A DNA stretch of 64,000 nucleotides, from NCBI RefSeq assembly GCF_027942865.1, contig NC_134507.1, forward strand, positions 37,544,797 to 37,608,796, read 5' to 3'. The number at the start of each line of letters is the position of its first letter. Position 1 is the first letter of the stretch. The notes beneath the pieces are model-generated. The model saw only the letters and a list, made by a program, of their open reading frames with translations. It was not told where the DNA came from and searched no databases. Position numbers and translations under genes: made by a program. This document shows, one piece after another, positions 12,446 through 63,110 of this stretch. Source of the DNA: Odontesthes bonariensis. Taxonomy: Eukaryota > Chordata > Actinopteri > Atheriniformes > Atherinopsidae.

Positions 12446-12609
12446 ATACTTACCTGGCAGGGGAGATACCATGATCAAGAAGGTGGTTCACCCAGGACGA
12501 GGCTCAGCCATTGCACACCGGCTGTACTGACCCTTGCGAATTCCCCAAATGTGGGAATCTCGACTGCATAATTTCTGGTAGTGGGGGACTGCGTTCGCGC
12601 TCTCCCCTG
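12446..12609 (+). ncRNA. U1 snRNA, copy 1
   Basis: 164 nt, the normal U1 length. It starts ATACTTACCTGGCAGGGGAG, the 5' splice-site pairing end. Loop I reads GATCAAGAAGG (70K-binding loop), loop II core ATTGCAC is present (U1A site), and the Sm site is ATAATTTCTGG. It ends at TCCCCTG. The spliceosome uses it to recognise 5' splice sites. No obvious damage. Confidence 0.93.
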
Positions 12610-13870: not shown

Positions 13871-13966
13871 ATACTTACCTGGCAGGGGAGATACCATGAT
13901 CAAGAAGGTGGTTCTCCCAGGATGAGGCTCAGCCATTGCACACCGGCTGTGCTGGTTCTTGCGAAT
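13871..13966 (+). pseudogene. U1 snRNA, copy 3, 5' part cut by transposon
   Basis: U1 nt 1-96, ending with GCGAAT (13961-13966), directly followed by the 9.3 kb transposon. The remaining nt are at 23285-23358. The sequence differs slightly from the other copies (GGATGAGG, GCTGGTTCTTGCG). Confidence 0.92.
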
Positions 13967-14005
13967 GGGCGATGTGCTGAATAGGAGTGCAATTGACCCT
14001 GCGAG

Positions 14006-14030
14006 CCATTGGCTTAGAGTCCATGTAGGT
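14006..14030. repeat. Left subterminal repeat of the Dada-like element
   Basis: CCATTGGCTTAGAGTCCATG resembles the ATTGGCCTAGAGTCTAC motifs near the right end (about 23139-23225). It is a candidate transposase-binding site by analogy with other DNA transposons. Confidence 0.5.
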
Positions 14031-14716
14031 GCAATTAAGAATTCTGATGTCACTGACCTCAAGAGTAATTTGCATATGCCTTCCCCCAGGTCTTGTGGAC
14101 CAGGATGGACCAGGAAGGACCAGGATATTACAGCACAAATGGCACACAATTTTATAGTTGCACCAAGCATAAGCCCCCTGCATCCATTTGCGCACAAAAG
14201 TCCCCTCCTGGCATGCTTTTGCATGGTTTTGTCATGTCAATCAACAGAATAAAGTGTTAAATGCATTTATTGTCATACTTTTGCCATATCTCAAGTGTGT
14301 GTATGAACAAAAAGCTATTCAAAATTCATGCCATGTATTTTTTTTTGCTCCCTTTCTTTCAATAAAGTATTGTTGATTATCACTTACTCCTATGCCTCTT
14401 ATGCTACTTCCCTAGAAGCCATTTATTTATATGGCACTTATTTCTGATAACTAGGCTCTGTTATTGTTGAATCAATTGACAGACACTCCACGACTCATTG
14501 TGACTGTAGCACTGACCATTTTTATTCAGTACCACAGCAAACAGCATCCAAGGGCAATGTTGACACCAGAGTGTGCAGTGCCGAGGAACAACAAAAGGTG
14601 CTGCGTTAAAGGGCACTCAGAGAGGGCACAGAGGACCATGAATTGCATGGCATTGTGGAGCAATACAAAATGTAATGGCACAGTTTACAGAGCATCACAG
14701 AAGTGCAACTTTAAAG

Positions 14717-15545
14717 GGCACAGTGCAGAGAACAACCCCACATGAAATAAATGAAACAGGGCAACAGTGCAGAGAACAACCCCACATGAAATAAATGAAA
14801 CAGGGCAACAGTGCAGAGAACAACCCCACATGAAGTAAATGAAACAGGGCAACAGTGCAGAGAACAACCCCACATGAAGTAAATGAAACAGGGCAACAGT
14901 GCAGAGAACAACCCCACATAAAGTGAATGAAACAGGGCAACAGTGCAGAGAACAACCCCACATGAAGTAAATGAAACAGGGCAACAGTGCAGAGAACAAC
15001 CCCACATAAAGTGAATGAAACAGGGCAACAGTGCAGAGAACAACCCCACATAAAGTGAATGAAACAGGGCAACAGTGCAGAGAACAACCCCACATAAAGT
15101 GAATGAAACAGGGCAACAGTGCAGAGAACAACCCCACATGAAGTAAATGAAACAGGGCAACAGTGCAGAGAACAACACGTGCCATGTTTAAGGGCAATTG
15201 TTCGTCCAGAACACAGAGAACAACCCCACATAAAGTGAATGAAACAGGGCAACAGTGCAGAGAACAACCCCACATAAAGTGAATGAAACAGGGCAACAGT
15301 GCAGAGAACAACCCCACATAAAGTGAATGAAACAGGGCAACAGTGCAGAGAACAACCCCACATAAAGTGAATGAAACAGGGCAACAGTGCAGAGAACAAC
15401 ACGTGCCATGTTTAAGGGCAATTGTTCGTCCAGAACACAGAGAACAACCCCACATAAAGTGAATGAAACAGGGCAACAGTGCAGAGAACAACCCCACATA
15501 AAGTGAATGAAATAGGGCAACAGTGCAGAGAACAACACACAGAAC
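14717..15545. repeat. 44 bp tandem repeat in the transposon 3' region
   Basis: Repeats of a 44 bp unit that includes AACAGTGCAGAGAACAACCC and ends in GAAACAGGGC. Two units are replaced by a different segment with CACGTGCCATG and TTGTTCGTCC (about 15176-15212 and 15401-15437). It lies just downstream of the stop of the minus-strand gene, before a possible poly(A) signal (AATAAA on the minus strand near 14520), so it is probably 3' UTR. Open frames across it result from a unit lacking stops and are not genes. Confidence 0.9.
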
Positions 15546-15596
15546 GCAGAGCATGAACACAGCAACTATATACACTATTTACAAGGGGCCGACCGT

Positions 15597-18500
15597 TCAC
15601 TCCTCCAGTCCGTCCACAACGGACATGAAGTGTTCAAAGTTTTTGAAAACTATGTCTTCCAGTCCTTTGGAGGGTGAACGGTGGATCTCAGGGCAATATG
15701 TCTTTTTTTTATATTTTTTGTGTCCCTGGATTTTGTGCCCGCAAACTTTGCAGGCCGGGAGACGCTGCACCTTCACGCCCAGCTCAGTGGGGTGGTCTGC
15801 CAGCTTTCTCTTGTACAGAGTCGATCGGGACCACGACAACCCTACCACAGCACTTTGTCCAGAGGGCGGCTTTACACCTGGCCTGATGGGCACAGACGCC
15901 GTGACCTGCGGGATGGAGGCCTGACCAGCAGGCTGTGTGGAGGAGGAGACGAGGGGCAGCAGAGGCGTGGTGATGGTGGACGGGGCAGAGCAGGAGACGA
16001 GGGGCAGCACTGCAGTGGGCCTGGTGATGGTGGACGGGGCAGAGCAGGAGACGAGGGGCAGCAGAGGCGTGGTGATGGTGGACGGGGCAGAGCAGGAGAC
16101 GAGGGGCAGCACTGCAGGAGGCCTGGTGATGGTGGAGGTGGTGGGGATTCTCCTCACCGGCAGACGGAGCAGCTGTGGAGGAGGCTGCGGCGTCTCCAGC
16201 AGCAGGTTGGTCCGACCCTTCAACACCTTGGTGCCGGCTGTGCTGGGCGTGGGGACGTACTCCATCACGGGGTAGTCGGGTGGAGGGAGGACGTCAGGCT
16301 GGCGCGGTGCAGGAGGCAGCTGCTCACAAGACACAGACGCGGCCTTTGAGGTCACAGCTGGCTGCCTGGTGGCGTGGAGGTTGACCAGCCTCTCCTGCTG
16401 GCGGATGAAGTCTCTCACCGTCTTGGTGTTAATTTTGGGGAGAGGGATGCCCGCCTTGCACAGGACGGGGTCCTCTACCAAGACCCGGTGCTGGATCCTC
16501 TCATAGGCCTTGAGAATGTTGGCCTTCTCAGGGCTGGAGCGGGAGGCCTGAGGGCTGCGCAGCCACAGCAGCTTGACCAGCACGTACATCAGCCGGTTGT
16601 GCTGCGGGCTGTTGTCCTGCTGAGCTGGCGCGTACCTCCTAGCCATCTTTACCCGCTGGACCACGGCGGCGTCAGCCAGGTCGTCCCTCTTGGTCCGACA
16701 ATATAGCGTGTTGCCCCAGTGGGTGCGGTAGAGCTGGTGGTACCGCTGTGGCTGCTTGTCATGCTCCTCCACCGCGTTCCAGGCATGAAGGACCCTGTTC
16801 CGCTCTGCTGTGCTGAGGAGCAGCTTCTGCTCTGTCAAGCCGACCTCCAGCAGCGCAGCACAGAAAGCCTCCAGCTTCTGGAACCCGGGCAGAGGACTGA
16901 CACTGCAGACATCATCCTGTAAAACACACACACACACAGAAAAGTAGGTAAGTTTCAATGTATACGATGTCTTGTTTTTTCAGTGGGTCACATGTATCGC
17001 TGTATTCTCTTCTATCAGTATGTATTGGACTCACAAAGGCAGGAGGGTTGACCGAAGCAGTCTCGCTGCTGGTCAGTCTGATGTGGGGCTCCAGATCAGT
17101 ACGGTCCTCCTCGCTCTGGTACGCCTCGTCGGCGTCTGGGTCGACCTCCCCAGGCTGAACAACCTCCTCCTCCGGCCCAGGACCGTCGCTGATGATGCCC
17201 TCCAGCGAGAACGCCTCCCCCGTGCTTTGGCTGAAGAGGTACTCCAGCCCGAGCAGCTCATCGGACTGGACATCAGCCGGGGCCCGGAAGTTGCGCTCCA
17301 CTGGCTCGCCCAACAGCTGCTGGCAGCGGGAGTTCAGGCGGTCGATGAGTGGCGTAGAGTACACCCGGTGGTGCCGCCCTCCGCCCCCAAACACCGCGTC
17401 TGAGCTGCGGTCAGCGTTCCACCTGGCGATGCCGCTTATCAGGTAAACCTGATAAGGCCGCGCCGCACAGTGGGGACCTGAACATCACAACAAACAGGTA
17501 TTATCAGTACCTCAGTTATCATGTGATAAACGTGTTTTTTTTTTTGGTATTTTTCCCCCTTAGATTACCTGGAATCATGTGGGGCAAAGATTTATGGAAC
17601 CCCTCCAGGCTGTTGCTCCCACGCAGGCCCTTGTAATATGGGACGTCCACACCGTTGATGGTGGTGGTGCGGGCGACACGATACATGACCATGCCTGGGG
17701 GGTCCTGGATGCACTCCAGGTGTCGCTGCTGGGCTGCCCACATCTCATCAATGGCCGCTGTAAACACACACACACACATGTTGAGCTGTAGTCATTTTGC
17801 ACGTGCGTGTGTGAGGTGTTTTTTTTTTTTTTTTTTTTTTTTCCTTACCAGGGGACTTGAAGAGGCTGACGCCGCTCTCATCCAGCCCTGCTGGACCCTT
17901 CAGGTCCTCGATGAGGAGGTGGACCAGGCGAAACGTCTCCTGGGCCCCGAGGGTGACCCGCCGGACATGGTGCTTCAGCTGGTCCCGGGAGACGTACCGC
18001 CGGACCACGTCCTCATCACTCACCACCTACATGGTGGCCGGGTCTCTGGCCCTGATGGCAGCGATGAGGAGCTGGAGGTCCTCGCGGTTGTAGGCCAGCA
18101 CCGCCCCGACCAGCGTGGATTTAAAGGGGCCGTATTTGGAGTGAGCCTCCGTTCTTAGAGCGGCGTCAAAGCGGTGGAGCCAGTGGAAAATGTCCAGCCT
18201 CACCACCATCCCCTCGTCCACCCAGGACTGGAACATGATCTCCACCGCGGTCGGACCCTGTGCTTTGCAGCAGCCGCGGTCGATGTAGAGGATCTGGGGG
18301 ACGGGCTGGTTTGCGAGGCGAAACCTCTCCATCACCCCACGACACATGGGCCCCAGCTTCTCCACCGACTCCTCGCAGGTAAGCACAAAGCTGACGATCT
18401 GGGAGAGCTCATTGCCGATGCTGGTGAACCACTCAGCCGAGCCCTTGCCCTCCCCAGACAGCTTCTTCACCACCTACAACAAAACAAACAAACAAATACA

Positions 18501-21500
18501 GTTTAGCTTTGCATAATGTGGTGTTTCCCTGTGAGTACTTGTATGCAACACACTTTTGGCTAACTTGCCTTCTTCGTGGAGTCCATTTTCAGCACTTTGC
18601 CGAACGTGGACAGGATCTGGCTCCGGTAATCCTGCACGTTGTCCGCCTCGGCCAGGAGGAAGGCGTGGCGCAGGAGCCGGGCGCAGGGAACCGCTCTCGG
18701 AGGGGGCGGTGCCTGGAACTCCCTGTGGCCCAGCGCAGAGACGATGCCTCTGGGTTCCACCAGGGCCATGAGGAGTGTGGTGTAGAGGTCCTTCCTCTCG
18801 TGGTAGTCCTCCAGGTGGTTCTCCTGCACCTGCCGCCACACCTTGACCATCGTGTTACCCTCCGTTCTGTCACGCAGGAGGCGAATGATGGTCTTGTCCA
18901 CCCCTCGCCTGGCAGTCAGTATGGCGGGAAACCTGGCCCGATGTGCCTCGCTCAGCTGCCGGAGGATGGCGTCGTCCCACGCCAGCCACCGACCCATGGG
19001 TCCGCTCTCTCCACCTCTGGCAGCCTTGAGACACGGCCCGCACGACAACACCTCTGTCGCCAGGGTGTACCAGCCCAACACATCACAGATGTGACGTACC
19101 TAAAACAGAGAGAGAGAGAATCACAGGTCAATCACAGGTTGCAGATATGCAACAAGCTTTTTATTTATTTACATTATTTATTTACATTACATTTTTTGCA
19201 TTTTATGTGTGCTTCCCTTTTTCACAACAAAGATCTGTGAAATTTTTTTGATTTGTTGTTGAATGGAAAGTTTATGATGGTTGCGTTCCGCACTTTGTAT
19301 TAAGAATGTTCAATAAAGGTCTATTACATACATTTTATTGTGGTAGCAGCAGTTCACTATACCTTTTTTGCCAATCGATCTGCAGAGAATGACTTGGTTG
19401 TGTGAACAAAATTAATCAGGAAAGCCCACAGTTGCAAATTTGCAACATTGCCTAAAATGATTAAAAATAGCCCAATTTCAAAAATTCCAAAAATATTGGT
19501 TTATTTCCACCCAAAAAGATGCAAGAAGAGCCAAAATGATTTTTTTCAATGATTATTCGTATGCTTGGGTGCTACAAGGTTAAGTAGTCCATGGTGATGT
19601 GTGTATTTCTCTGAGCACAGCTGTGCAGAGACTGAGCCTTACCCGGGAGTGGTAGCCAGACTTGGAGAGGTGTGAGTTGCCTCCAGCCCCGGCACACTTC
19701 TCTCCGCGCGGACACTTCAGGGAGCACCGCCACACTCCGACGGGACGCCAGAAGAAAAAGCGGCCTCGGAAAAAGGCCTGTGGAGTGGGAATGCCGCCGC
19801 TCACAAAGCCGGGTGGCTCGGGTGGGTAGAACCACATCCGGTCTGACTTCAACACTCGCCGCCTTCTAATGGCGCCCTTTATGTCCTTGTAGACCTGGAC
19901 TGGTGTGAAGAGGCCTCGCTCGCTGTCCTCCTTCAGCCAGGGGATGTCGGCAGAGGGGATTCCGTTGGGGTCTTCCCAGAGGCGCACCCAGCCTTCCAGC
20001 TCCACCTGCAAGACACAAGGTGTACAACAACGCACAACATTTAGTTATTTATTTTCCCTAATGTGGTGATTTTGTGAAATGCATTAACATTGCTTGTGTA
20101 TTTTGTGATTTTACACTTACAGAAGAGTCACTCTGTGACAAGGTGGTGGCAGACGCAGGCTGTGAGGTCGACGGCGGCTCCTCGGGACGAGCATCAGGGG
20201 GACCCTGACCAGGCGCTGAGGACGGCACGGGCGTCTGTTGTTCAGGAGACTCAGTAGAGGCAGCCTTGCTGGTGGACGGCTGTGAGGACAGCAAGAGCTG
20301 CTTTGAGGCAGCCTTGCTGGTGGACGGCTGTGAGGACAGCAGGAGCTGCTTTGAGGCAGCCTTACTGGTGGACGCCTGTGAGGACAGCAGGAGCTGCTTT
20401 GAGGCAGCCTTACTGGTGGACGCCTGTGAGGACAGCAGGAGCTGCTTGTGCTGTGTTGAGGCAGCCGTGCTGGTGGACGGCTGTGAGGACAGCAGGAGCT
20501 GCTTTGAGGCAGCCTTACTGGTGGACGCCTGTGAGGACAGCAGGAGCTGCTTGTGCTGTGTTGAGGCAGCCGTGCTGGTGGACGGCTGTGAGGACAGCAG
20601 GAGCTGCTTTGAGGCAGCCTTGCTGGTGGACGGCTGTGAGGACAGCAGGAGCTGCTTTGAGGCAGCCTTACTGGTGGACGCCTGTGAGGACAGCAGGAGC
20701 TGCTTGTGCTGTGTTGAGGCAGCCGTGCTGGTGGACGGCTGTGAGGACAGCAGGAACTGCTCTGAGGCAGCCTTGCTGGTGGAGGGCTGTGAGGACAGCA
20801 GGAGCTGCTTGTGCTGTGTTGAGGCAGCCGTGCTGGTGGAGGGCTGTGAGGACAGCAGGAGCTGCTTGTGCTGTGTTAAGGCAGCCGTGCTGGTGGAGGG
20901 CTGTGAGGACGGCTTCTGCTGCTTGCTGCGCCTTTCCTTCTTGCTGGTAGACTTCTTTGGAGAAGCTGGCACGCTGGTGGAGAGTGGCGACGGCTGTTTG
21001 GGACCCTCGGCGGACACAGGAGGAGGCTGACTGGCGGAGATGGGCTCCCCATGGCTCTCGAAGGTGACGAGGGCATCCACCAGAGCAGTGTCGTCCGGAG
21101 CGTCGTCAGACCATGGCGCCTGGGAGGTGGCAGCTGCAGCAGGGGCCCTTGAAGTGGCAGCGGCGGCAGCAGCAGGAGGAGGAGTGGCGCTCTGTGAATT
21201 ACAGGTGAGTGTGAGCTATTACATTATTATTGGGTTTTGCAGTGTAGTTACAGAATGCAGTGTAGTTACAGAATGCAGTGTAGTTACCTCTTTATCCAGT
21301 ATATACTGTCTGAAGCGTTTGAGTGACTTCGAGGTGATGTCACTCTCCCGCATCAGCAGCCACTGCTTGACAGAGGTGTGGGCCTCCTGCGCCATCCTCC
21401 GCTCCTGCTCACTGCCGGCTTGAGGGTCAGATTGGTGGTGCTGGTACCACTGCCACATCTCGAGGAACGTGAACGACCGGAAACGGCCCATGCCGTAAAT

Positions 21501-22152
21501 GGCCTTGTCCACGTTCCTCTCGAGGTGGCAGGAGATGGCCGGAAAGAGCTCCACGTACTGCAGCAGGCTGTCCTTCAACCACTCCTCGTTTAAGGCCCCA
21601 CGCTTCTCCGGCTGCCGGCTCTCTTTAACGTGGCGGTCGACAAGACTGAAATGCACACACACACACACACACACACACATTGCTGTTAGTTTCAGTGAAG
21701 GGAAAACTGTTCCTGGCTTGCTTTGGTTTTCTTGTAAATGCTTACTACTTGACGTAGCCCACGTCGTTCTCGACCAGCCACTTAAAGGTCCAGCCGGTGT
21801 AGCGGCCGAAGGTCAGGACCAGCTGCCCCAAGTACTGGGCCTCAGTCGGCCTCTGTAAGCTGCAGCGCCTCTTTGCTGAAGACGAGACATGTTATGACCT
21901 CAGTGAACAGGCAAGCAAAAGCTCTGGTGCACCACATTGTCATTACTTATATATTTATAGTATAAATGCAATGCCAAGATGTTTACCCTCCTCAAAGGCA
22001 GTCTTGGGGTCCCTCAGTTTATCGTCCCTCGGACAAACCTGACCTCTCCCCTGCTGGGCCTTGGCTGCCTTGGAGGCTGCCAGAACGCATTGCTGCCTCT
22101 CTGCCGGCAGGCTGGTGTTCAGGATGTTGAGGGCTGGCAGCAAAGTATCCAT
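15597..22152 (-). CDS. Ten-exon transposase-like gene of the Dada-like element
   Basis: Coding exons, minus strand: 22152-21987, 21875-21746, 21645-21288, 21191-20121, 20005-19643, 19099-18569, 18473-17849, 17757-17569, 17477-17035, 16916-15597. All junctions are GT-AG except a GC-AG donor after 18569, and all phases agree, giving 1731 codons. Residues 56-110 contain LGQLVLTFGRYTGWTFKWLV. Exon 4 (219-575) is a low-complexity SSQPSTS repeat. Exons 5-6 contain clustered cysteines and the WDDAILRQLSEAHRARFPA region, as in fish proteins with a DUF6729-type domain. Exons 7-8 carry ILYIDRGCC, VRLDIFHWLHRF and SNSLEGFHKSL, candidate D, D and E positions of a DDE catalytic core. The C-terminus has a CKVCGHKIQGH...YCP zinc-like site. 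One in-frame TAG at 18027-18029 (residue about 1022) probably inactivates this copy. Start chosen as the first ATG after a 3' splice site; an upstream non-coding exon is likely. Confidence 0.8.
20255..20910 (-). repeat. Coding minisatellite in exon 4
   Basis: Tandem in-frame units of 39 and 57 bp encoding QLLLSSQPSTSKAASK and a longer form with TQHKQ. Unit lengths are multiples of three, so the frame is kept. It forms a Ser/Thr/Ala/Gln-rich linker, predicted to be disordered. Confidence 0.85.
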
Positions 22153-22414
22153 GTCCTGAAATTGTCAACAGACTTTTAGCAATATCATGATCATTATAAC
22201 CATTGCAATAGTCACTATTATTAGACAAATGGAGGCAAAAGCCATAGCATTGCCACCAGAATTGAAAATGTACAACAGGCAAATGTAACACGTATTAAAA
22301 TTCATCCAAACGAGGTGGATATTTTATTTATTTTTTTTGCATAAATAATGGCTCCGGGCCAAATCACAGACGCACTTGACAGAGTTGCAGCTCGAAAGAG
22401 CGCATGTGCACTGT

Positions 22415-23070
22415 CGCTGGTGTCACTCGACTTTCATTTTACAACGCTAAAAACGTTATCTATTATCTGTTGATGTGACATTCACAAAGTAGACAGGAAA
22501 ATGATATAAATATAGCCATGACGTATTTTTTTCTTTTGCTAAAAATAAACTTTATAGCGTTGATTAAACAAAACACCCATGGAGCAACGCGGAGATATTT
22601 ACAGCGTACGGTCACCCAGCTTTAACATTACGCTTAAAACCTTGTATTAAAAATAAACAGGTGATCTTCTTAATAAATTACAGAGGTATATCGCCAGAAT
22701 ATGATCGCAGACGAGCTAGAGGGTCTGGCTGCAGACCTGTACTGCCGCTGGTGTCACTCGACTTCCATGTTACAACGTTAAAAACGTTATCTGTTATCTG
22801 TTGATGTGACATTCACAAAGAAGACAGGAAAATGATATAAATAAAGCCATGCTGTATATTTTTTTTGCTAAAAATAAACTTTATAGCGTTGCTAACACCC
22901 TTCGGTCACCCAGCTTTAACATTACGCTAAAAACCTTGTATTACATATAAACAGGTGATCTTCTTGATAAATTACAGAGGTATATCGCTAGAATATAATC
23001 ATAGTAGGTAAATGCGGGACATTTTTTATCAATTACAGAGGTATATCGCTAGAATATGATCGTAGTAACA
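22415..23070. repeat. Tandem duplication of about 331 bp upstream of the transposase gene
   Basis: The segment beginning CGCTGGTGTCACTCGAC at 22415 recurs at 22746, and both carry AAAAACGTTATCT, AAAATAAACTTTATAGCG and GAGGTATATCGC. A third partial copy of the end occurs near 23031-23065. It covers the promoter side of the gene. Confidence 0.8.
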
Positions 23071-23138
23071 AACTGTACCTTCGTAGCAGCCTCTCGGTAT
23101 TTCGCGAGTTGGTTTGGCTTGAATTGGCCAAGAGCCTC

Positions 23139-23225
23139 TCTGATTGGCCTAGAGTCTACATTTAGAATGTAGACTCCTCTCTGATTGGCCTAGAGTCTAC
23201 ACTTAACGTAGACTCTAGGCCAATG
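23139..23225. repeat. Right subterminal repeats of the Dada-like element
   Basis: Three copies of TTGGCCTAGAGTCTAC in both orientations, partly forming hairpins (GTAGACTCTAGGCCAAT). The same motif is near the left end at 14006. Probably transposase-binding sites (inference). Confidence 0.65.
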
Positions 23226-23284
23226 ACAGGCCGTAACTGTCTACAAGCAACGTAGACTTTTGCACTTCAGTTCGGAAATCTTCC

Positions 23285-23358
23285 GCGAACTCCCCAAATG
23301 TGGGAATCTCGACTGCATAATATCTGATAGTGGGGGACTGCGTTTGCGCTCTCCCCTG
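23285..23358 (+). pseudogene. U1 snRNA, copy 3, 3' part
   Basis: U1 nt 91 to the end, resuming after the transposon with GCGAACTCCCCAAATGTGGG. The Sm region reads ATAATATCTGATAG, slightly changed from the array consensus. Together with 13871-13966 it makes up one interrupted gene. Confidence 0.9.
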
Positions 23359-23906: not shown

Positions 23907-24070
23907 ATACTTACCTGGCAGGGGAGATACCATGATCAAGAAGGTGGTTCACCCAGGACGAGGCTCAGCCATTGCACACCGGCTGTACTGACCCTTGCGA
24001 ATTCCCCAAATGTGGGAATCTCGACTGCATAATTTCTGGTAGTGGGGGACTGCGTTCGCGCTCTCCCCTG
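23907..24070 (+). ncRNA. U1 snRNA, copy 4
   Basis: 164 nt, same as copy 1 through the 5' end, loops I-II, Sm site and 3' stem. Candidate PSE at the same distance upstream. Probably functional. Confidence 0.93.
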
Positions 24071-27260: not shown

Positions 27261-27627
27261 CACAGTCCTCGTGACAAATATGTGTTACATAGGTGCTGGA
27301 ACCATACGTTTCCCCTATTTTACCAGAGAGTTGGCTTGAGAGGCTGATGTTCAGCCTGCACGTCGACTTCCCTGATGTGTTTTTTCTCTGCAGCTGAAAA
27401 TGGGACTCTCAGATAACTTAGTGTGTGTCTGTCAAGCTCCTCTGTTCTCTGTGTGTAGTTTGGTGTTCATGGTCATACAGGGAAACCAGGGAAGCTCAGT
27501 CCCACGACATGCTCATAAACTGCATCTTTTCTAAAGATTATAGTTCTATTTTAGAAGTCAGAATACAATGGCTCCCTGAAACTACCACCATGTACCGCTG
27601 GTTTTGTTATTTCACAAGAGTTGGGAA

Positions 27628-27778
27628 GAGTGCACCGTTCCCGGCGGCACTGCAGTACCGGGTCGATGCGTGGAGTGAACGGAGCAAGCCCCTTTTTCAA
27701 CCCCTGTGCCTAAAAATCCATTTAATATGTAGTCCTCATATAGAGGACGTATCAGATATTAAACTGATAAGAACAGAT
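27628..27778 (-). pseudogene. U2 snRNA 3' part (nt 38 onward)
   Basis: Begins ATCTGTTCTTATCAGTTTAA directly after the LINE 3' end and runs to GGAACGGTGCACTC. It includes the Sm site (GGATTTTTAGG) and both 3' stem-loops (CTTGCTCCGTTCACTCCACG). With 33327-33352 it represents one U2 gene interrupted by the LINE; U2 nt 27-37 are absent from both sides. Confidence 0.93.
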
Positions 27779-27993
27779 TTTTTCTTTCGAAAAAATTTAT
27801 TGACACTAATACATCACATTTTCATAAAAACTTCATATTTAAGACATATGTTTTACCTATGAATAAAAACATCAATAAATAAGTGTAATCTGTATAACCA
27901 CATTTAAAACAACAACAATAAAACAAGTTTACCATGGGATATTACAGATAAAGTCAATGTCGTCTAAGGTAAAAGCTACATGTGAAGTAGTTC

Positions 27994-30900
27994 TCATGCG
28001 AGTAGCAGTTTGTATTGAGTTTCTTTAAAAAGGAGTGCATTAGTTAAAATGCTCTCTTCCAAGTCCATTTTTTGTGCAGGAGCGCAGTGAGTCCCTACCC
28101 AGGGAAACTCATTTCGCTCCCCCAAACAGTAGGTCTCTCGGGATCCTGTCGTGGTTTTTGTGTGTAGCTCCGGCTCCTTCATCCGAATGGGCACAGAGGC
28201 GATTCTTCTTTGTGGATGTGTCCTAGGCCCGCCGCCTGCAGCTCCGGCCGCTTGAGCCGCCGCTGCGGCCATCCGGATCACAGCCACGGGGGGGATCTGC
28301 ATGCGCTTCCTCACCAGCAAGTTCCTGGAGGTCCACATGGCGTCTTTGATGGCGGCTAGGGTGAGCCACTGCTTGGCAAAGTCATTCTTTTTTATTTTTG
28401 TTTGGCTCACCCCATAGAGCACGAGTTGTGCTGTGAGGACCTCCCTTGCTGGCAAGTACGGGAATTGCAAGGAGCCGGCTGTTGCCCACCGGTCTGCAGC
28501 AGCGCTGCACTCCCAGAGCAGGTGCCTCACCGACTCGGGCGCGCCATAACCAGGTCGCGGGCAGGTTGAGATCGCTGACATGCCCCGGGAGTGCATAACG
28601 GACCTGACTGGGAGGATCTCATGAGCCACCATCCACGACAGGTCCCGGAGTCTGTTTGGGAGAGCGGCATGGTTGACGTTGCACCAAACTGTTGAGGGCT
28701 CGCCAAACGCGAGCCCACGCACTGGACTCACTGGTTCCCGCTCCTGCACAACAGAAATCAAAGAGCGGTGGTTTGTTAAAACATGCAACTCCTCTGCCTC
28801 CAAGTTAAAATGCTTTAAGAACGTCTGGATAAAAGCATAGGATGGTGGGAGGCTAAAAGACACATGCACTTATAGGTCGGTGGGTAAAATCTTCAGTCTT
28901 CTGAGGTAAGAACCCATCCAGAATCGTGTCATTGCTTTAGTTTTGGGGTTTCCGGATGGGTCTGTGGCCTGTAGGATGTGCAGTGTAGTGTATCTGCTTC
29001 CTAAAAACAAATAAAAATCAGGCACTCCTTTTCCTCCTTTCTCTTTTTGTTTCTTCATTACATCTCTCCTCAGTCTTTCCCACTTGGAGCCCCACAGAAA
29101 ATAAAAAATGGCTCGGTCCAGGTCTAAAAGCACTTTTCTAGGTGGGATAAAAACAGAACTGATTAGTAAAAGCAAAGGTAAAATCACGGCTTTGATGATT
29201 AAAACCTTTCCTTCAATGGTCAGTCCTCTAAGTCCCCAGTATCCTAGTCTTTGCTTTACTTTCCCTACCACATCTGGCCAGTTTGATGTCCCTCCCCCTT
29301 CCTTGTCAAAATTAATCCCCAGTATTTTCTGTTTTGTCTGGGTTATAGTCACGGGGAGTCCTGCAGTCTCAGTCGCTGTCCATGGCCCGTAAAATTGGGC
29401 TTGGGTCTTGTTTCTGTTTAGTTTTGCCCCAGAGGCCCGTCCATACCAGTCAGTCAAGTCCAGAGTCCTATTGATGGATATTAGGTCTGTACATAAAATG
29501 TTCACGTCGTCCATATATAAAACACACTTTGTCGATAGTCCCCCGCTCCCCGGGACTCTCACCCCATTGATTCGGTGGTCCCTTCTCAAGCTCTGTGCCA
29601 GTGGTTCCACACAGATGATGTAGAGGAGGGCAGATAACGGACAACCCTGACGGACACCGCAGTGGATGTTTACTGCTTTTGTCAGATGCCCGTTAACAAG
29701 GAATTTGCTGGTAATGCCCCGGTACAGCAGACCCACCCAAGCTATAAACCTTTCTGGGAACCCCATTTTTTGCAGTACCTGGAAAAGGTACTGGTGCGAG
29801 ACCCGATCAAAGGCTTTCTCAAAGTCTAAATTTAGGACTGCTAGCCGAATGTTTCTGTCTCTCGCATAACAGATGGTGTCTCGGATCAGTACGAGGCTGT
29901 CGGTTATCTTCCTCCCCGGGATGGCACAGGCTTGATCCGGGTGAATCAGGTCTTCTAAAAACAAGGACATACGTGAGGCTAAAAGTTTACTAAAAAGTTT
30001 ACAGTCAAAGTTTAAAAGTGTAATCGGTCTCCAATTCTTCAAGTCAGTCTTGTCTTTTTTTTTGTGAAGAAGAGTCACTATCCCTGCTCTAAAACTGTCA
30101 GGAAGTCGGTAAAGTTGCTCAAATTCCATAAAAACAGTAAACAAGTCAGGTGCTAAAATATCCCAAAAGGTCAAATAAAATTCCAAGGGAAGTCCATCTT
30201 GTCCTGGGGACTTCCCTTTCTTAAAATTTGTGAAACATTTATTTAACTCTGAAATTGTAAAATCTTGGGTTAAAAGCACACTGTCTTTTACTGTTTTTTC
30301 TATGAAATTTAAAACTTCTGTCATGGTGTCCATTTCAACAGGTTTTTGTTCGTACAATTCACAATAAAATTGTTCAACAGCTTGTTTAATTTCTTCCATT
30401 GAATCAACTGTGCACCCGTTCTCTTTTGTTAGCTTTAAAATGGCCCCCCCTTTATTCACAATTTTCTTAAAAAAAATACCTTGTGCACTTCTCTCCTTCC
30501 TCTATTTCTCGTTCCCTGCTTCTTAAAATGACGCCCTTACTTTTAATATCTGCTAAAATCGACATCTCTGTTTTCACTTGTTTAATTTCATCATTAAAAT
30601 CCATCCCTTGTTGGTTTAATTTAAAATAGCGCTGTAGTCGCTTCTGCAGTCCCATCATGCGTCTGTTTTCCCTATTCTTTTTTCTCCTACCTGCCTGTCT
30701 AAAGAAAGTCTGGGTCTTTTCCTTCACCATTTCCCACCAGTGTGCACGTGTATCGTAAAAGTCTTGAAGGGTCTGCCACTCGTGGTACTGCTCCCGGTAC
30801 TGACTAACTATTTCATTTTCTTTTAAAAGGGAGCAGTTTAGTTTCCACAGACCACTTCCGGAAGTCACACCCGAAGAGAGTGATAGGGTGCAGGAAAACA

Positions 30901-31612
30901 TCAGGTGATCCGAAAAGAAAACGGGGGTCAATCTAGCATCGGTTGGTGGGCAGTCCCGTGTAAAAAGGTAGTCTATACGAGAGGCTCTGGTGCCATCACC
31001 ACTGAACCAGGTGAAGCCCTCCTCTCTGGGATGCATGGTCCTAAAACAGTCCTGAAGTTTAAAATCCTTGCATATGCCCTGTAATAAAACCGATGTTTTG
31101 TCAACTTTAAAAAATTCCCCTGCTCTTTTTCTGTCACTCCTGCTTAAAATACAGTTAAAATCACCCCCTAAAACTAGTGGTGCCCTACCTAGCATGTGGG
31201 ACTGCAGGTCTTCTAAAAGGTCATACCGGTCATTTTTTTCGTTAAAGCCATAAATATTTAAGAGGTTAAAATCTTGTCCCATAAAAGTCAAATGTGCTAA
31301 AAGTGCCCGTCCGTCTCTCACCACAGTGCTGCCCTTCACCAGAACCTGAGGGTTTTTGATCAAAATGGCCACTCCATCATTTTTGTTTTGGTTGGATCCA
31401 CTCCACAATGATGTCTGTGGCCACATCTCCTCCCACTGTCTGTAGTGCTTTAAAAACGGTAGGCTGCATTCCTGTATTAAAAGAACATCTGACTTAAAAG
31501 AACTAAGAAAGGATAAAACACTCTGGGCTCTAACTTTCGACTTTACACTTCTCACATTAATAGTTGAGAGAGTGAGTGTCATGAGTATGGTTAAAAACAA
31601 CAGGTATGACAT
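27994..31612 (-). pseudogene. LINE ORF2: endonuclease-reverse transcriptase
   Basis: The endonuclease segment (31612-30467) shows LIQE, LGGDFN, SRIDYLF and FSDH, the APE-type catalytic motifs. The RT segment (30459-28870) has NWRPITLLN, LDFEKAFDRV, GVRQGCPLS and YMDD (about 29514). The C-terminal segment (28869-27994) has a zinc-binding-type region ([13 protein letters not shown]). The endonuclease and RT frames are separated by a run of eight T in the coding strand (about 30470-30477), one base too many, and a TAA replaces a lysine codon at about 28870; the left-hand fragment keeps the lysine. Two lesions, so it was active fairly recently. Confidence 0.9.
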
Positions 31613-31791
31613 CTTAAAAGACTAAATGAGGGTTAAAACATTTAAAATGTCTTAAAAGCAGTTATGTAATTTCTTGTGAACGGAGCTCTTCCTTCACTTC
31701 TACAGGTGAGAGGCGAGGGTGTTGAGCTCTATTCCCCGGTCGGACTCTGGGGGTTGGCCTCTGTTGCAAGGTTTTGTTAAACTTTGAGTCT

Positions 31792-32973
31792 CTAGGGGTT
31801 GATTGCAGAACTACATTTAAAAAAAGAGACCTCATTTGGTGAATTGGAGGGGAAGACTCTGGGCTCCTCCACAGATGAACTGTCTGAGGTAGTCCCAGCT
31901 CTTCCCCTCTTCTCTGAGACTATAGGAGAATCAGAGGACAATTCTGATGCAAGCCTCTTTGTTTGCTGGGCATCGGGGAGGGAGGCATCCTCGCTATCAT
32001 CCTGTGATTGGACTTCTTCACATTCTGAACTAGCTCCGCCTTCTGCCTGCACCACCTCCTCCTCCTCTCCAGAACTCTCCATTGGTGGGGGTGTAGCAGG
32101 CCCCTCCCCCTCCTCGGCCTCACCTGACTGCTGTCCACCATTCAGGGATTTTGGCGGGAAGTTTGAATTTTCCAGCCCAGCTGTTTCAAGTAGCTCGTTA
32201 ACTGCCTCGGTCTGCCCTCCATTTCCTTCCCGCGTTTTTTTGGATTTCAATTTGTTGGCAAAGGATTTTGGGCAATCTCTGAAGAGGTGGTTTGATTCTC
32301 CACAGAGATTGCACTTTCTGCCATTCGTACACTCTTCGAAGGTGTGACCGATTCCTCTACATTTGCCACAAAACACCTTCGTGCAGGCCTCCACCAGGTG
32401 CCCGTGCTCCCCACACTTGCGGCAGAGTTTGGGCTGTCCCTGGTAGTGGATGTAGCCTCTGTTTTCTCCCAAGACAATCATTGATGGGAGATGTCTCAGG
32501 CCCTGGAAGCCCTGGGGGTCTTGCCATTGTTGGATGGGGACCCTCCAGGCGCAGTTCCAGATGCCGTCGACATCCCTCACCTTCATTGCCTGGCCTTTAA
32601 CAGTGCAGAATCTTCCCAACCATATACAGATATCTTCTGCGTTCACCATTTCATTGAACATTCTGACAATTACTGTCTTCAGAGTATTGTCAGTAAGTTT
32701 CTCAACAGTAAACGCAGAAAACTGGGCTTGCACATTTTCAAATCTTGTCCAAAACTCCTGCAGCAAAGCTGCAGTGCGAAAACTGACATCGAAACCTTTG
32801 TTAAAAGGCAATGACAGGATGCAATTCAAATCGTCTGGCTTAAAGTTCAATGTTTTTTGGATTAGCTTCCGAGAGAAGTCCAATCTGGACATCTCTATGA
32901 GCTTTCCTTCATTTTCTTTAAACAAAAATCTAGCGCTGTGGTGCCTCCTCATGCCAGCATAGTTTGCCGACAT
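31792..32973 (-). CDS. LINE ORF1: three-knuckle RNA-binding protein
   Basis: 393 residues, intact. The N-terminal two thirds ([16 protein letters not shown]...) resemble fish ZCCHC3-like ORF1 proteins. Three consecutive CCHC knuckles follow ([42 protein letters not shown], residues about 185-245). The tail is acidic and Ser/Glu-rich. It would bind LINE RNA in the RNP. The start is the first ATG after the 5' UTR, and the same ATG context occurs in the left copy (2285). The stop is about 180 bp before ORF2. Confidence 0.92.
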
Positions 32974-33326
32974 GATGGAGGGACCACAAACAGTTTTTAA
33001 ATAAAATGCTTAAAAGAACACTAATGAATATCACACTAAAACCCAATAAAAGAATAAAAAGTGGATTAAAAGGTACTAAAAATGGATACTTACCTTCCTC
33101 TAAAAAAAAAAAAACGGAACGAAGCCACTGACCCTGTTTCAGCTGAAACTCTTTCAAAAAGTAAATACCTGGGAAAAAAGGGTAATACAAGAAAATTTAA
33201 ATACAAAGAACTCCAACTACAATAGACTTGGAATACTTTGATCAAACGCAAAAAAAAAACCTCCAAAGCGAGAAAATTTGATGCCAAAAAGGCATAAAAT
33301 AGTCCACCCAAAGGAGGCGATCGCAG

Positions 33327-33352
33327 TCTTAGCCAAAAGGCCGAGAAGCGAT
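33327..33352 (-). pseudogene. U2 snRNA 5' part (nt 1-26)
   Basis: ATCGCTTCTCGGCCTTTTGG followed by CTAAGA, identical to U2 nt 1-26, then LINE 5' UTR (CTGCGATCGCC). The promoter upstream is intact, so this U2 promoter could drive transcription into the LINE. Confidence 0.92.
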
Positions 33353-33510
33353 AACCCTCCACTGTTTCACGTCCGAGCCCCCTTCCTGGCACAATGCGCA
33401 CTTGTGGCGGTGCTCTTTTTTTGCCTACAAAGCGTCACTTTGCACCTCCGCCCACCCGCTGCAGTGAGCACTCTTCAGCCGTTTCAGATGGTACAACTTT
33501 GCACTCCCGC
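33353..33510 (-). promoter_or_regulatory. U2 snRNA promoter (right copy)
   Basis: Same layout as 1780-1928. PSE candidate GCACCGCCACAAGTGCGC at 33413-33396 (-61 to -44), with GC-rich GGGCGG boxes farther upstream (about 33445-33515). It faces the LINE 5' end. Confidence 0.55.
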
Positions 33511-43569: not shown

Positions 43570-43641
43570 GGGCTCGTCCGGGATTTGAACCCGGGACCTC
43601 TCGCACCCAAAGCGAGAATCATACCCCTAGACCAACGAGCC
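43570..43641 (-). tRNA. tRNA-Pro (UGG)
   Basis: 72 nt. Acceptor GGCTCGT/ACGAGCC, D arm TTGGTCTAGGGGTATGATT, anticodon arm CTCGCTTTGGGTGCGAG with anticodon TGG, T arm CCCGGGTTCAAATCCCGG. All stems pair and the A and B boxes are intact. It decodes CCA (and by wobble other CCN). No strong T-run terminator directly follows. Confidence 0.95.
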
Positions 43642-43714: not shown

Positions 43715-44690
43715 TAGACATCAGGGGCTTCATGTACAAAGCGTGCGTACGCACAAAATAGTGGCGCACGTTTTCACGTCAACGATCAGATCAAGAACGA
43801 AAAGACCGTGGAAATGTGCGGTGCCTCACGGCAGCTTCAGGGCTGGCGTACGCACTTTTCTACAGCTGTTGATTCTTTGGCGACACCTAAGGTGATGTTG
43901 GGACACTGTTATAATAAATAAATGTAAAAACAATTAGTGCTCAGACAGTGATGTGCACACCTGAGACACATGAACAATTAATACTGATAAACTATTAACA
44001 CACCCATGTGTCTGCAATTACACGAGCGGACATAAAAACAGCGCAAAGTGGTGCAATGCATACCATTAAAAACAATGGCTGCTTAAATTAGAAGACTTTG
44101 CAAATGGTGCAATTCGAAGAGAGCGTGTGTTCACTACAACAGAGAGGATTAGCTGGCACATGATGGCGACTGACTCATCAGCCGTTTTGAGGGAAATCCT
44201 CCTGGAACTGTACGCAGAGCTGCGGCCGGCGTTGGAGCACAACACAGCGAGGAGGCATGCGCTGCCTGTGCCCACAGGTGATGTGCACACTGGGGTTCCA
44301 ACCGGGGCATTCCAGAGGTGATGTGCACACTGGGGTTCCAACCGGGGCATTCCAGAGGTGATGTGCACACTGGGGTTCCAACCGGAGCATTCCAGAGGTG
44401 ATGTGCACACTGGGGTTCCAACCAGGGCATTCCAGAGGTGATGTGCACACTGGGGTTCCAACCGGAGCATTCCAGAGGTGATGTGCACACTGGGGTTCCA
44501 ACCGGAGCATTCCAGAGGTGATGTGCACACTGGGGTTCCAACCGGGGCATTCCAGAGGGAGCTGGCCTACCGATTGGGACTGTGCCAGTCTACCGTGACC
44601 CGAGCCATGCCAGCCACGTGGGGCAGAATTAATCGCATCTCAGCCACGTATATAAAATTCCCAACAGGCCAACATTAAAGACCTCATGAC
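43715..44690 (+). mobile_element. PIF/Harbinger transposon relic
   Basis: The 5' part (about 43720-43860) has GCGTGCGTACGCAC-type subterminal sequence. Transposase fragments: EILLELYAELRPALEHNTAR and RRHALPVPT (44190-44275), then, after a minisatellite, GAFQRELAYRLGLCQSTVTRAMPATWG and SATYIKFP (44540-44665). These match the helix-turn-helix and upstream region of fish Harbinger transposases. The catalytic domain is absent. Confidence 0.75.
44277..44556 (+). repeat. 40 bp minisatellite, seven units
   Basis: Seven near-identical 40 bp units, starting AGGTGATGTGCACACTGGGG and ending GGCATTCCAG, differing mainly at one G/A site. The unit is itself part of the transposase coding sequence, so it arose by local amplification. 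40 is not a multiple of three, so frames rotate and three open frames appear as by-products. Confidence 0.95.
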
Positions 44691-52597: not shown

Positions 52598-52670
52598 CAC
52601 CTGAACAGGTACTTGAACCCTGGACCCTCAGATTAAAAGTCTGATGCTCTACCAGCTGAGCTATCCAGGC
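52598..52670 (-). tRNA. tRNA-Lys (UUU)-like gene, probably decaying
   Basis: 73 nt: GCCTGGATAGCTCAGCTGGT, anticodon arm TCAGACTTTTAATCTGA with TTT, T arm CAGGGTTCAAGTACCTG. Compared with tRNA-Lys there are several changes: acceptor pairs weakened to G-T, and the normally constant last T-stem pair (G53-C61) is G-A. No T-run terminator is near. Probably a pseudogene or poor gene. Confidence 0.75.
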
Positions 52671-62340: not shown

Positions 62341-62435
62341 TAAAAACCAAAATAATGAGTTTAATGGAATGTGACTGGATGGTTAAAAACTGTGCAGAAA
62401 GGTTATCAAGAGAAGAAGAAAAGTGGGCAGAACCA

Positions 62436-63110
62436 GGAGCTGAACCAGGAGCAGAACCAGGAGCTGAAGCAGAAACAGAACCAGGAGCAGAACCAGGAGC
62501 AGAACCAGGAGCAGAACCAGGAGCAGAACCAGGAGCTGAAGCAGGAGCTGAAGCAGGAGCAGAACCAGGAGCTGAAGCAGGAGCTGGAGCAGGAACAGAA
62601 CCAGGAGGTGAAGCAGGAGCTGGAGCAGGAACAGAACCAGGAGGTGAAGCAGGAGCTGAACCAGGAGCAGAACCAGGAGCTGAAGCAGAAACAGAACCAG
62701 GAGCTGAAGCAGGAGCAGAACCAGGAGCAGAACCAGGAGCAGAACCAGGAGCAGAACCAGGAGCAGAACCAGGAGCTGAACCAGGAGCTGAACCAGGAGC
62801 TGAACCAGGAGCTGAAGTAGAAACAGAACCAGGAGCTGAACCAGGAGCTGAACCAGGAGCTGAACCAGGAGCTGAACCAGGAGCTGAACCAGGAGCTGAA
62901 CCAGGAGCAGAACCAGGAGCTGAAGCAGGAGCTGAAGCAGAAACAGAACCAGGAGCTGAACCAGGAGCAGAACCAGGAGCTGAACCAGGAGCAGAACCAG
63001 GAGCTGAAGCAGAAACAGAACCAGGAGCAGAACCAGGAGCAGAACCAGGAGCAGAACCAGGAGCAGAACCAGGAGCAGAACCAGGAGCAGAAGCAGGAGC
63101 AGAACCCCTC
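62436..63110 (+). repeat. 12 bp minisatellite, Gln/Glu-coding
   Basis: About 56 units of 12 bp, mainly GAGCAGAACCAG, GAGCTGAACCAG and GAGCTGAAGCAG with occasional CAGAAACAGAAC variants. Since 12 is a multiple of three, long frames run on both strands. The plus frame reading QNQELNQEQ would be a charged coiled coil but meets a stop at 62818; the frame reading AEPGAE is open throughout. Which, if any, is translated cannot be decided. Confidence 0.9.

Follow-up and report, generated by a model that had tools for sequence, protein, structure and literature searches.

A Dada-U1 DNA transposon in a U1 small nuclear RNA gene of the fish Odontesthes bonariensis

What split a U1 small nuclear RNA (snRNA) gene of the fish Odontesthes bonariensis into two halves 9.3 kb apart, and how does such DNA come to lie at that site? 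The gene belongs to a tandem U1 array in a stretch of 64,000 nucleotides (contig NC_134507.1, positions 37,544,797 to 37,608,796), called here the window, to which all coordinates without a prefix refer. A preliminary description of the window had proposed that the intervening DNA belongs to Dada, reported by its authors as the first DNA transposon superfamily that strictly targets small-RNA genes (PMC3706591). We conclude that the insert is almost certainly a Dada-U1 DNA transposon.

Results

The insert lies at nucleotides 91-96 of U1 between copies of a hexamer

The window contains six whole U1 genes in addition to the interrupted one at 13871 (Rfam), and the units are spaced 712-713 bp apart within the runs that flank the insert on both sides. 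The site comprises the following features.

12446..12609, + strand: intact U1, reference of the 712-bp array (Rfam)
13871..13966, + strand: left half of the interrupted U1 snRNA gene, nucleotides (nt) 1-96 (Rfam RF00003 match and alignment to the intact array U1)
23285..23358, + strand: right half of the same gene, nt 91-164 (alignment to the intact array U1)
13961..13966, + strand: target-site duplication, left copy GCGAAT (alignment to the intact U1)
23285..23290, + strand: target-site duplication, right copy GCGAAC (alignment to the intact U1)
13967..23284, - strand: insert identified as a Dada-U1 transposon, 9,318 bp, transposase antisense to U1 (U1 junctions, splice model, protein relatives; second full copy at locus L026)

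The U1 gene that follows starts at 23907, whereas it would be expected at about 14583 (13871 + 712) if there were no insert. The 9,324 bp added equal the 9,318-bp element plus a 6-bp duplication, and the phase of the array is kept within 1 bp. Aligning the rejoined halves with the intact U1 of 164 nt requires no gaps and shows 9 or 10 mismatches, according to which hexamer is retained; the left half accounts for 6 and the right half for 4. Hence the 9.3-kb insertion at U1 nt 91-96 with a 6-bp duplication, as the preliminary description had it, is confirmed by Rfam, alignment, array phase and the second copy, and the halves do rejoin with GCGAAT and GCGAAC at the two sides. The same description had placed the target in stem-loop III. 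This holds for five of the six bases, since nt 92-96 open the 5' strand of stem-loop III in the Rfam structure, but not for nt 91, the single base that separates stem-loops II and III.

A short motif recurs inside both ends of the element and in U1 itself.

13987..13993, + strand: left sub-terminal repeat GTGCAAT, 20 nt inside the end (motif printed for Dada-U1 in PMC3706591)
23259..23265, + strand: right sub-terminal repeat TTTGCAC, 19 nt inside the end (6 of 7 bases as in ATTGCAC)
13935..13941, + strand: ATTGCAC in U1, 19 nt before the duplicated hexamer (sequence)

A given 7-mer is found within one base of a given offset with a chance of about 0.0002, if equal base frequencies are assumed. 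No inverted repeat of at least 14 nt that pairs the two element ends was present among the 25 pairs listed of a total of 43.

The element carries a predicted transposase gene with introns

Antisense to U1, the element contains a predicted transposase gene of 10 exons (15597-22152) with 1731 codons, including one internal stop. Eight of the nine introns in the exon model are GT-AG and one is GC-AG.

21987..22152, - strand: exon 1, start codon (splice model; donor also in L026 and L028)
21746..21875, - strand: exon 2 (splice model and other copies)
21288..21645, - strand: exon 3 (splice model and other copies)
20121..21191, - strand: exon 4, with the coding minisatellite 20257-20910 (splice model; 3' end unaligned in the best block of other copies)
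19643..20005, - strand: exon 5, start of DUF6729 and of the CCCC region (C673, C679) (splice model, Pfam, other copies)
18569..19099, - strand: exon 6, C716, C719 and first catalytic D (D869); GC splice donor (splice model, relatives alignment, other copies)
17849..18473, - strand: exon 7, second catalytic D (D938) and DxxH (967-970) (splice model, relatives alignment, other copies)
18027..18029, - strand: premature stop codon, residue 1022 (splice model; inside the catalytic region)
17569..17757, - strand: exon 8, catalytic E (E1133) (splice model, relatives alignment, other copies)
17035..17477, - strand: exon 9 (splice model; ends aligned in L028 only)
15597..16916, - strand: exon 10, C-terminal CCHC cluster and stop codon (splice model, relatives alignment, other copies)
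14715..15536, no strand: 44-bp tandem array (minisatellite) downstream of the transposase gene (repeat search)

Wherever exon ends could be aligned in two other copies of the element, L026 and L028, the splice dinucleotides are kept; the alignment was incomplete for exon 4 in both copies and for exon 9 in L026. The coding minisatellite of exon 4 varies in length among copies.

Dada transposases are described as having a D-D-DxxH-E signature, CCCC and C-terminal CCHC clusters, and introns (PMC3706591), and these printed features match the product of exons 15597-22152. Its catalytic residues are D869, D938, D967xxH970 and E1133, conserved as D, D, D, H and E in 85, 86, 94, 89 and 86 of 99 database relatives, respectively. 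The CCCC cluster ahead of the core consists of C673, C679, C716 and C719. Its first, third and fourth positions are cysteine in 81, 77 and 77 of the 99 relatives, but the aligned column of the second is cysteine in just 19, the window reading CPRGEKC where the family consensus is CPRxxC. The C-terminal CCHC cluster (C1681, C1684, H1691, C1700) is kept in 70, 69, 64 and 66 of the relatives, with 25-28 gaps.

The in-frame stop at 18027-18029 resembles a splice acceptor, and a splice remnant behind it was considered and rejected: the column is filled in 80 of the 99 relatives and a gap in 19. With one nonsense codon inside the catalytic region, the window copy appears to be dead now.

Relatives of the protein are mostly fish proteins with DUF6729

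The Pfam domain DUF6729, the only one found in a search of the core piece, is carried by 85 of the 99 database relatives, and most named sources are fish. Matches outside DUF6729, namely, ExoX-like_C and Tas3-like_N (both below cut-off) and Adeno_VII (22.2 bits against a cut-off of 21.2), were taken as chance. The term "DUF6729" was not found in the literature searched. The best database protein, R3I93_018338 of Phoxinus phoxinus (P0001, with DUF6729), shows 89% identity over the whole region searched; it is not named as a transposon in its source database and was compared as a protein only. In a quick tree of 42 rows, none with a labelled target, this protein is the sister of the window protein (Shimodaira-Hasegawa-like approximate likelihood ratio test [SH-aLRT] value of 98), and the window protein clusters with 14 fish proteins (SH-aLRT 100).

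The Alosa sapidissima protein P0002 (83% identical) branches as sister to the pair formed by the window and Phoxinus proteins, nearer than the rows of Leuciscus waleckii and Danio aesculapii, a position that horizontal transfer or lineage loss could explain. Of three further proteins (P0016, P0026 and P0019), those of a sea star (63%) and a limpet (53%) branch beside the fish group that contains the window, and that of a lancelet (59%) branches beside the other fish group. One fish DUF6729 protein, P0010 of Dissostichus eleginoides, is entered in the database under the name of a bacterial non-toxic nonhemagglutinin, clearly a misannotation.

When PDB sequences were searched with a profile of the family alignment, 6 sequences were found at E values of ≤1, the best at 0.04, none of them a transposase. 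The structural ranking was taken from VIA-align, which only re-ranks the best 1000 of Foldseek; by this ranking the protein has an RNase H-like fold related to that of ISCth4, at about 10% identity. ISCth4 is the transposase of an insertion sequence that, unlike the window element, is bacterial and that we take to belong to the IS256 family. We know of no zinc-finger regions in ISCth4 like those of Dada.

Further copies interrupt U1 at the same nucleotide

A U1 search of the genome yielded 297 candidates, of which 40 were scored, and stretches were read around part of these. Together with the window, they contain 44 U1 genes of full length and 18 cut pieces, not counting pieces that touch the end of a stretch. 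The cut pieces are accounted for by the window (2), L026 (2), L028 and L033 (2), left halves at a second Dada family (7), and two genes cut by a long terminal repeat (LTR) element (4), with 1 unexplained piece, at C2:35123579-35123699 (L016), that comprises only nt 44-164.

As the preliminary description had anticipated, other copies of the window's family (family 1) sit in U1 genes at the same nucleotide among the U1-bearing stretches read. L026 contains a second full copy of about 8.9 kb. This copy separates U1 nt 1-96 from nt 91-164, both of its junctions are those of the window copy, and its hexamers GCGAAT and GCGAGC are equal at 4 of 6 bases. A third copy of 9,469 bp (L028 and L033, C2:36701999-36711659; junction L028:2200-2300) lies inverted between two oppositely oriented U1 left halves. 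Its left end has a normal join to U1 nt 96, and its breakpoints are both hexamer borders (nt 90/91 and 96/97). All three family-1 copies seen in these U1-bearing stretches thus sit in U1.

The three elements differ pairwise by 1.4-1.8% (window against L026, 1.4%), mostly through private changes, which number 42, 64 and 85 in a star-like pattern. Between the window and L026, the ratio of replacement to silent substitution rates (dN/dS) is 0.33, with 18 silent and 19 replacement changes (Fisher P of 0.0014), as computed with exon 4 left out and exons 9 and 10 only partly aligned. This ratio suggests that the family-1 lineage was recently under selection for its protein. Each copy carries lesions, one stop in the window, other lesions in L026 and a probable frame break of its own in L028, and the three copies are therefore probably dead, as judged from their sequences.

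A second Dada family is represented by seven copies (L019-L024 and L030), each starting at U1 nt 96 and having a 5S/U2 unit next to its other end. In this family GTGCAAA lies, as counted by eye, 19 nt in from the element's end. When six of these copies were compared with the window protein by tblastn, three stretches of the N-terminal half matched at 40-42%, 65-66% and 36-46% identity and the catalytic core was unmatched. The best relative of this family is P0017, which belongs to the other fish group of the tree. Its left hexamers are GCGAAT in five copies and GCGAGC in two. We did not retain the seven copies as independent insertions at nt 96 but counted them as one event, because they share both the left junction and the right 5S/U2 junction; they look like a single insertion multiplied by duplication of array blocks.

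Did one insertion spread with the array?

The behavior of the second family raises the question of whether all copies in this genome derive from one insertion spread by duplication of U1 array segments, in which case they would say little about target choice. Array-block duplication is real here. Besides the junctions common to the seven family-2 copies, a 6.7-kb LTR retrotransposon (1023-bp LTRs, 5-bp duplication CTCAG) occupies the same U1 position, nt 58-62, in L025 and L027, two arrays about 2.5 Mb apart, with 99.45% identity between its copies, a mark of large duplications between U1 arrays. However, 6 of 96 bases distinguish the left U1 half of the window from that of L026, against a divergence of 1.4% between the elements, a combination with a P value of 0.0023 under one shared history without conversion. 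The star-like private changes of the three family-1 copies also argue against a single spread insertion, as do the flanking spacers of the window and L026 copies, which resemble one another no more than they resemble the rest of the array. Moreover, the same nucleotide is used by the second lineage, and Dada-U1A and Dada-U1B of zebrafish are reported at one identical U1 site (PMC3706591). Gene conversion among the units of the array might nonetheless obscure this evidence, and we consider a single spread insertion unlikely while granting it some weight.

The other alternatives fare far worse. A member of another DNA transposon superfamily (hAT, Kolobok, MuDR or P) that landed in U1 by chance is very improbable, because the array phase is kept and a second copy has the same two junctions; the Dada-U1 motif and hexamer are present as well, and DUF6729 is the one domain that Pfam finds in the core piece. 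Although tandem arrays pose difficulties for assembly, an assembly error that placed a transposon in the U1 array is just as improbable, given the array phase kept within 1 bp, the duplication, and the second copy with the same two junctions in another array. A retrotransposon was rejected on the DDE (aspartate-aspartate-glutamate) signature in the coding exons, the searches made having given no reverse transcriptase match for the element.

Hexamers and an inverted junction hint at how the cut is made

At nt 96, none of the 44 intact U1 genes has C (38 GCGAAT, 3 GCGAAAT, 3 others). Nevertheless, GCGAAC or GCGAGC stands at two of the three family-1 right ends and GCGAGC at two of the seven family-2 left ends, and neither hexamer occurs in the 44 intact genes. 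Two of the first two right hexamers end in C, but the third copy, with GCGAAT, shows that this is no rule.

We tentatively propose, as a doubtful but specific possibility, that the hexamer next to a Dada-U1 end can move together with its element rather than arise as a copy of the target, and that staggered transposase cuts can rearrange the U1 array. The inverted junction of L028, with breakpoints at the hexamer borders, is what would be expected from inverted joining of two transposase-cut U1 genes, and both the odd hexamers and this junction would be in keeping with an element that brings its hexamers with it. Against such transport, family 2 is an apparent single event and yet shows two hexamers, which makes mutation or conversion after insertion a real alternative, and the numbers are small. 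No description of a hexamer-exact inversion in a U1 array was found in the parts of the Dada literature available to us; this inversion and the flanking hexamers absent from 44 intact U1 genes are possibly new.

In the insertion itself, the transposase would bind both sub-terminal repeats as well as the corresponding motif in U1, cut 6 nt apart and join the element, and host repair would then duplicate the hexamer. Loss of one U1 gene may be tolerable given the many U1 copies in the array. The binding, cutting and joining steps follow established DDE chemistry and the anatomy of the element, and the short repeats of Dada have been speculated to serve target recognition (Kojima and Jurka, PMC3706591).

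Other features of the window

An element of about 5.5 kb (27625-33355, - strand) interrupts the U2 gene of the window near the 5' part of the gene, and U2 resumes beyond it. By eye only, the frames of this element resemble an apurinic/apyrimidinic (AP) endonuclease, a reverse transcriptase and a CCHC protein, and it fits Keno, a U2-targeting element (PMC4640811). Related stretches occur in L021, L023, L030 and L031. The window also contains tRNA genes at 43570-43641 and 52598-52670 and tandem repeats at 44272-44558 and 62427-63106 (40-bp and 12-bp units).

Discussion

How well does the element agree with known Dada transposons? Like other members of the superfamily, its protein has the DDE triad with DxxH after the second D, at similar spacing, and an N-terminal CCCC zinc finger, the spacing of the zinc clusters departing slightly. 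Relative to Dada-U6_DR, the CCHC cluster matches in its C-C spacing of 3 and H-C spacing of 9, whereas the C-H spacing is 7 versus 10. The target-site duplication of 6-7 bp known from Dada is found in the window (5 of 6 bases equal) and in L026 (4 of 6). Dada elements are without terminal inverted repeats, and none is clear here either. Animal Dada families have introns, and total lengths in the superfamily are 4666-10979 bp, to be compared with 10 predicted exons and 9318 bp in the window.

The closest described counterparts are Dada-U1A_DR and Dada-U1B_DR of zebrafish, of 11.0 and 9.5 kb by their table coordinates (Kojima & Jurka 2013, PMC3706591). The window element resembles them in the U1 site, the hexamers GCGAAT/GCGAAC, the lack of terminal inverted repeats, the zinc fingers and the introns, as well as in the sub-terminal GTGCAAT/ATTGCAC with the same motif in U1 (PMC3706591). 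It differs in its genome, in the TTTGCAC of its right arm and in the premature stop of the window copy. A Dada-U1 lineage has been reported from five orders of ray-finned fish, Cypriniformes among them (Kojima 2022, PMC8869645), and its target strand and the sequence around its hexamer agree with the window element. Two U1 sublineages that are independent of each other have been described in zebrafish.

Several points weigh against the assignment to Dada-U1 and its target specificity. The assignment was made by comparison with the printed features of Dada, and Foldseek alone gave no match at E values of ≤0.001. One base differs between the two hexamers of the window, the bases before the hexamer are TT where zebrafish has CT (PMC3706591), and the right sub-terminal repeat agrees with ATTGCAC at only 6 of 7 bases. 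The search for inverted repeats was restricted to those of at least 14 nt, and the first ten bases of the two element ends agree at 6 of 10 by eye. Copies were sought only beside U1 genes, and not every junction is simple, since the right end of the third copy (GCGAAT) is joined inverted to nt 90 of another U1. Nonetheless, the Dada identity is supported as far as it can be tested, by the junctions, the sub-terminal repeats, the D-D-DxxH-E signature, the zinc fingers and the introns. The window element is thus well supported as a new example of a known site-specific DNA transposon, not as a new kind.

The locus adds a well-described case to Dada, with both junctions and an exon model that two further copies support, and it reveals two Dada lineages using one U1 nucleotide within one genome. 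Target replacement (Dada-tA, tY and tV) and one-ended events (Dada-tL and U6) are already in print (PMC3706591, PMC8869645, PMC4640811), and target choice of the Dada kind has been proposed as a tool for gene delivery (PMC3706591). Two observations, the inverted junction and the unusual hexamers, offer concrete starting points for understanding the cutting step and the ways in which elements of this type reshuffle snRNA arrays.
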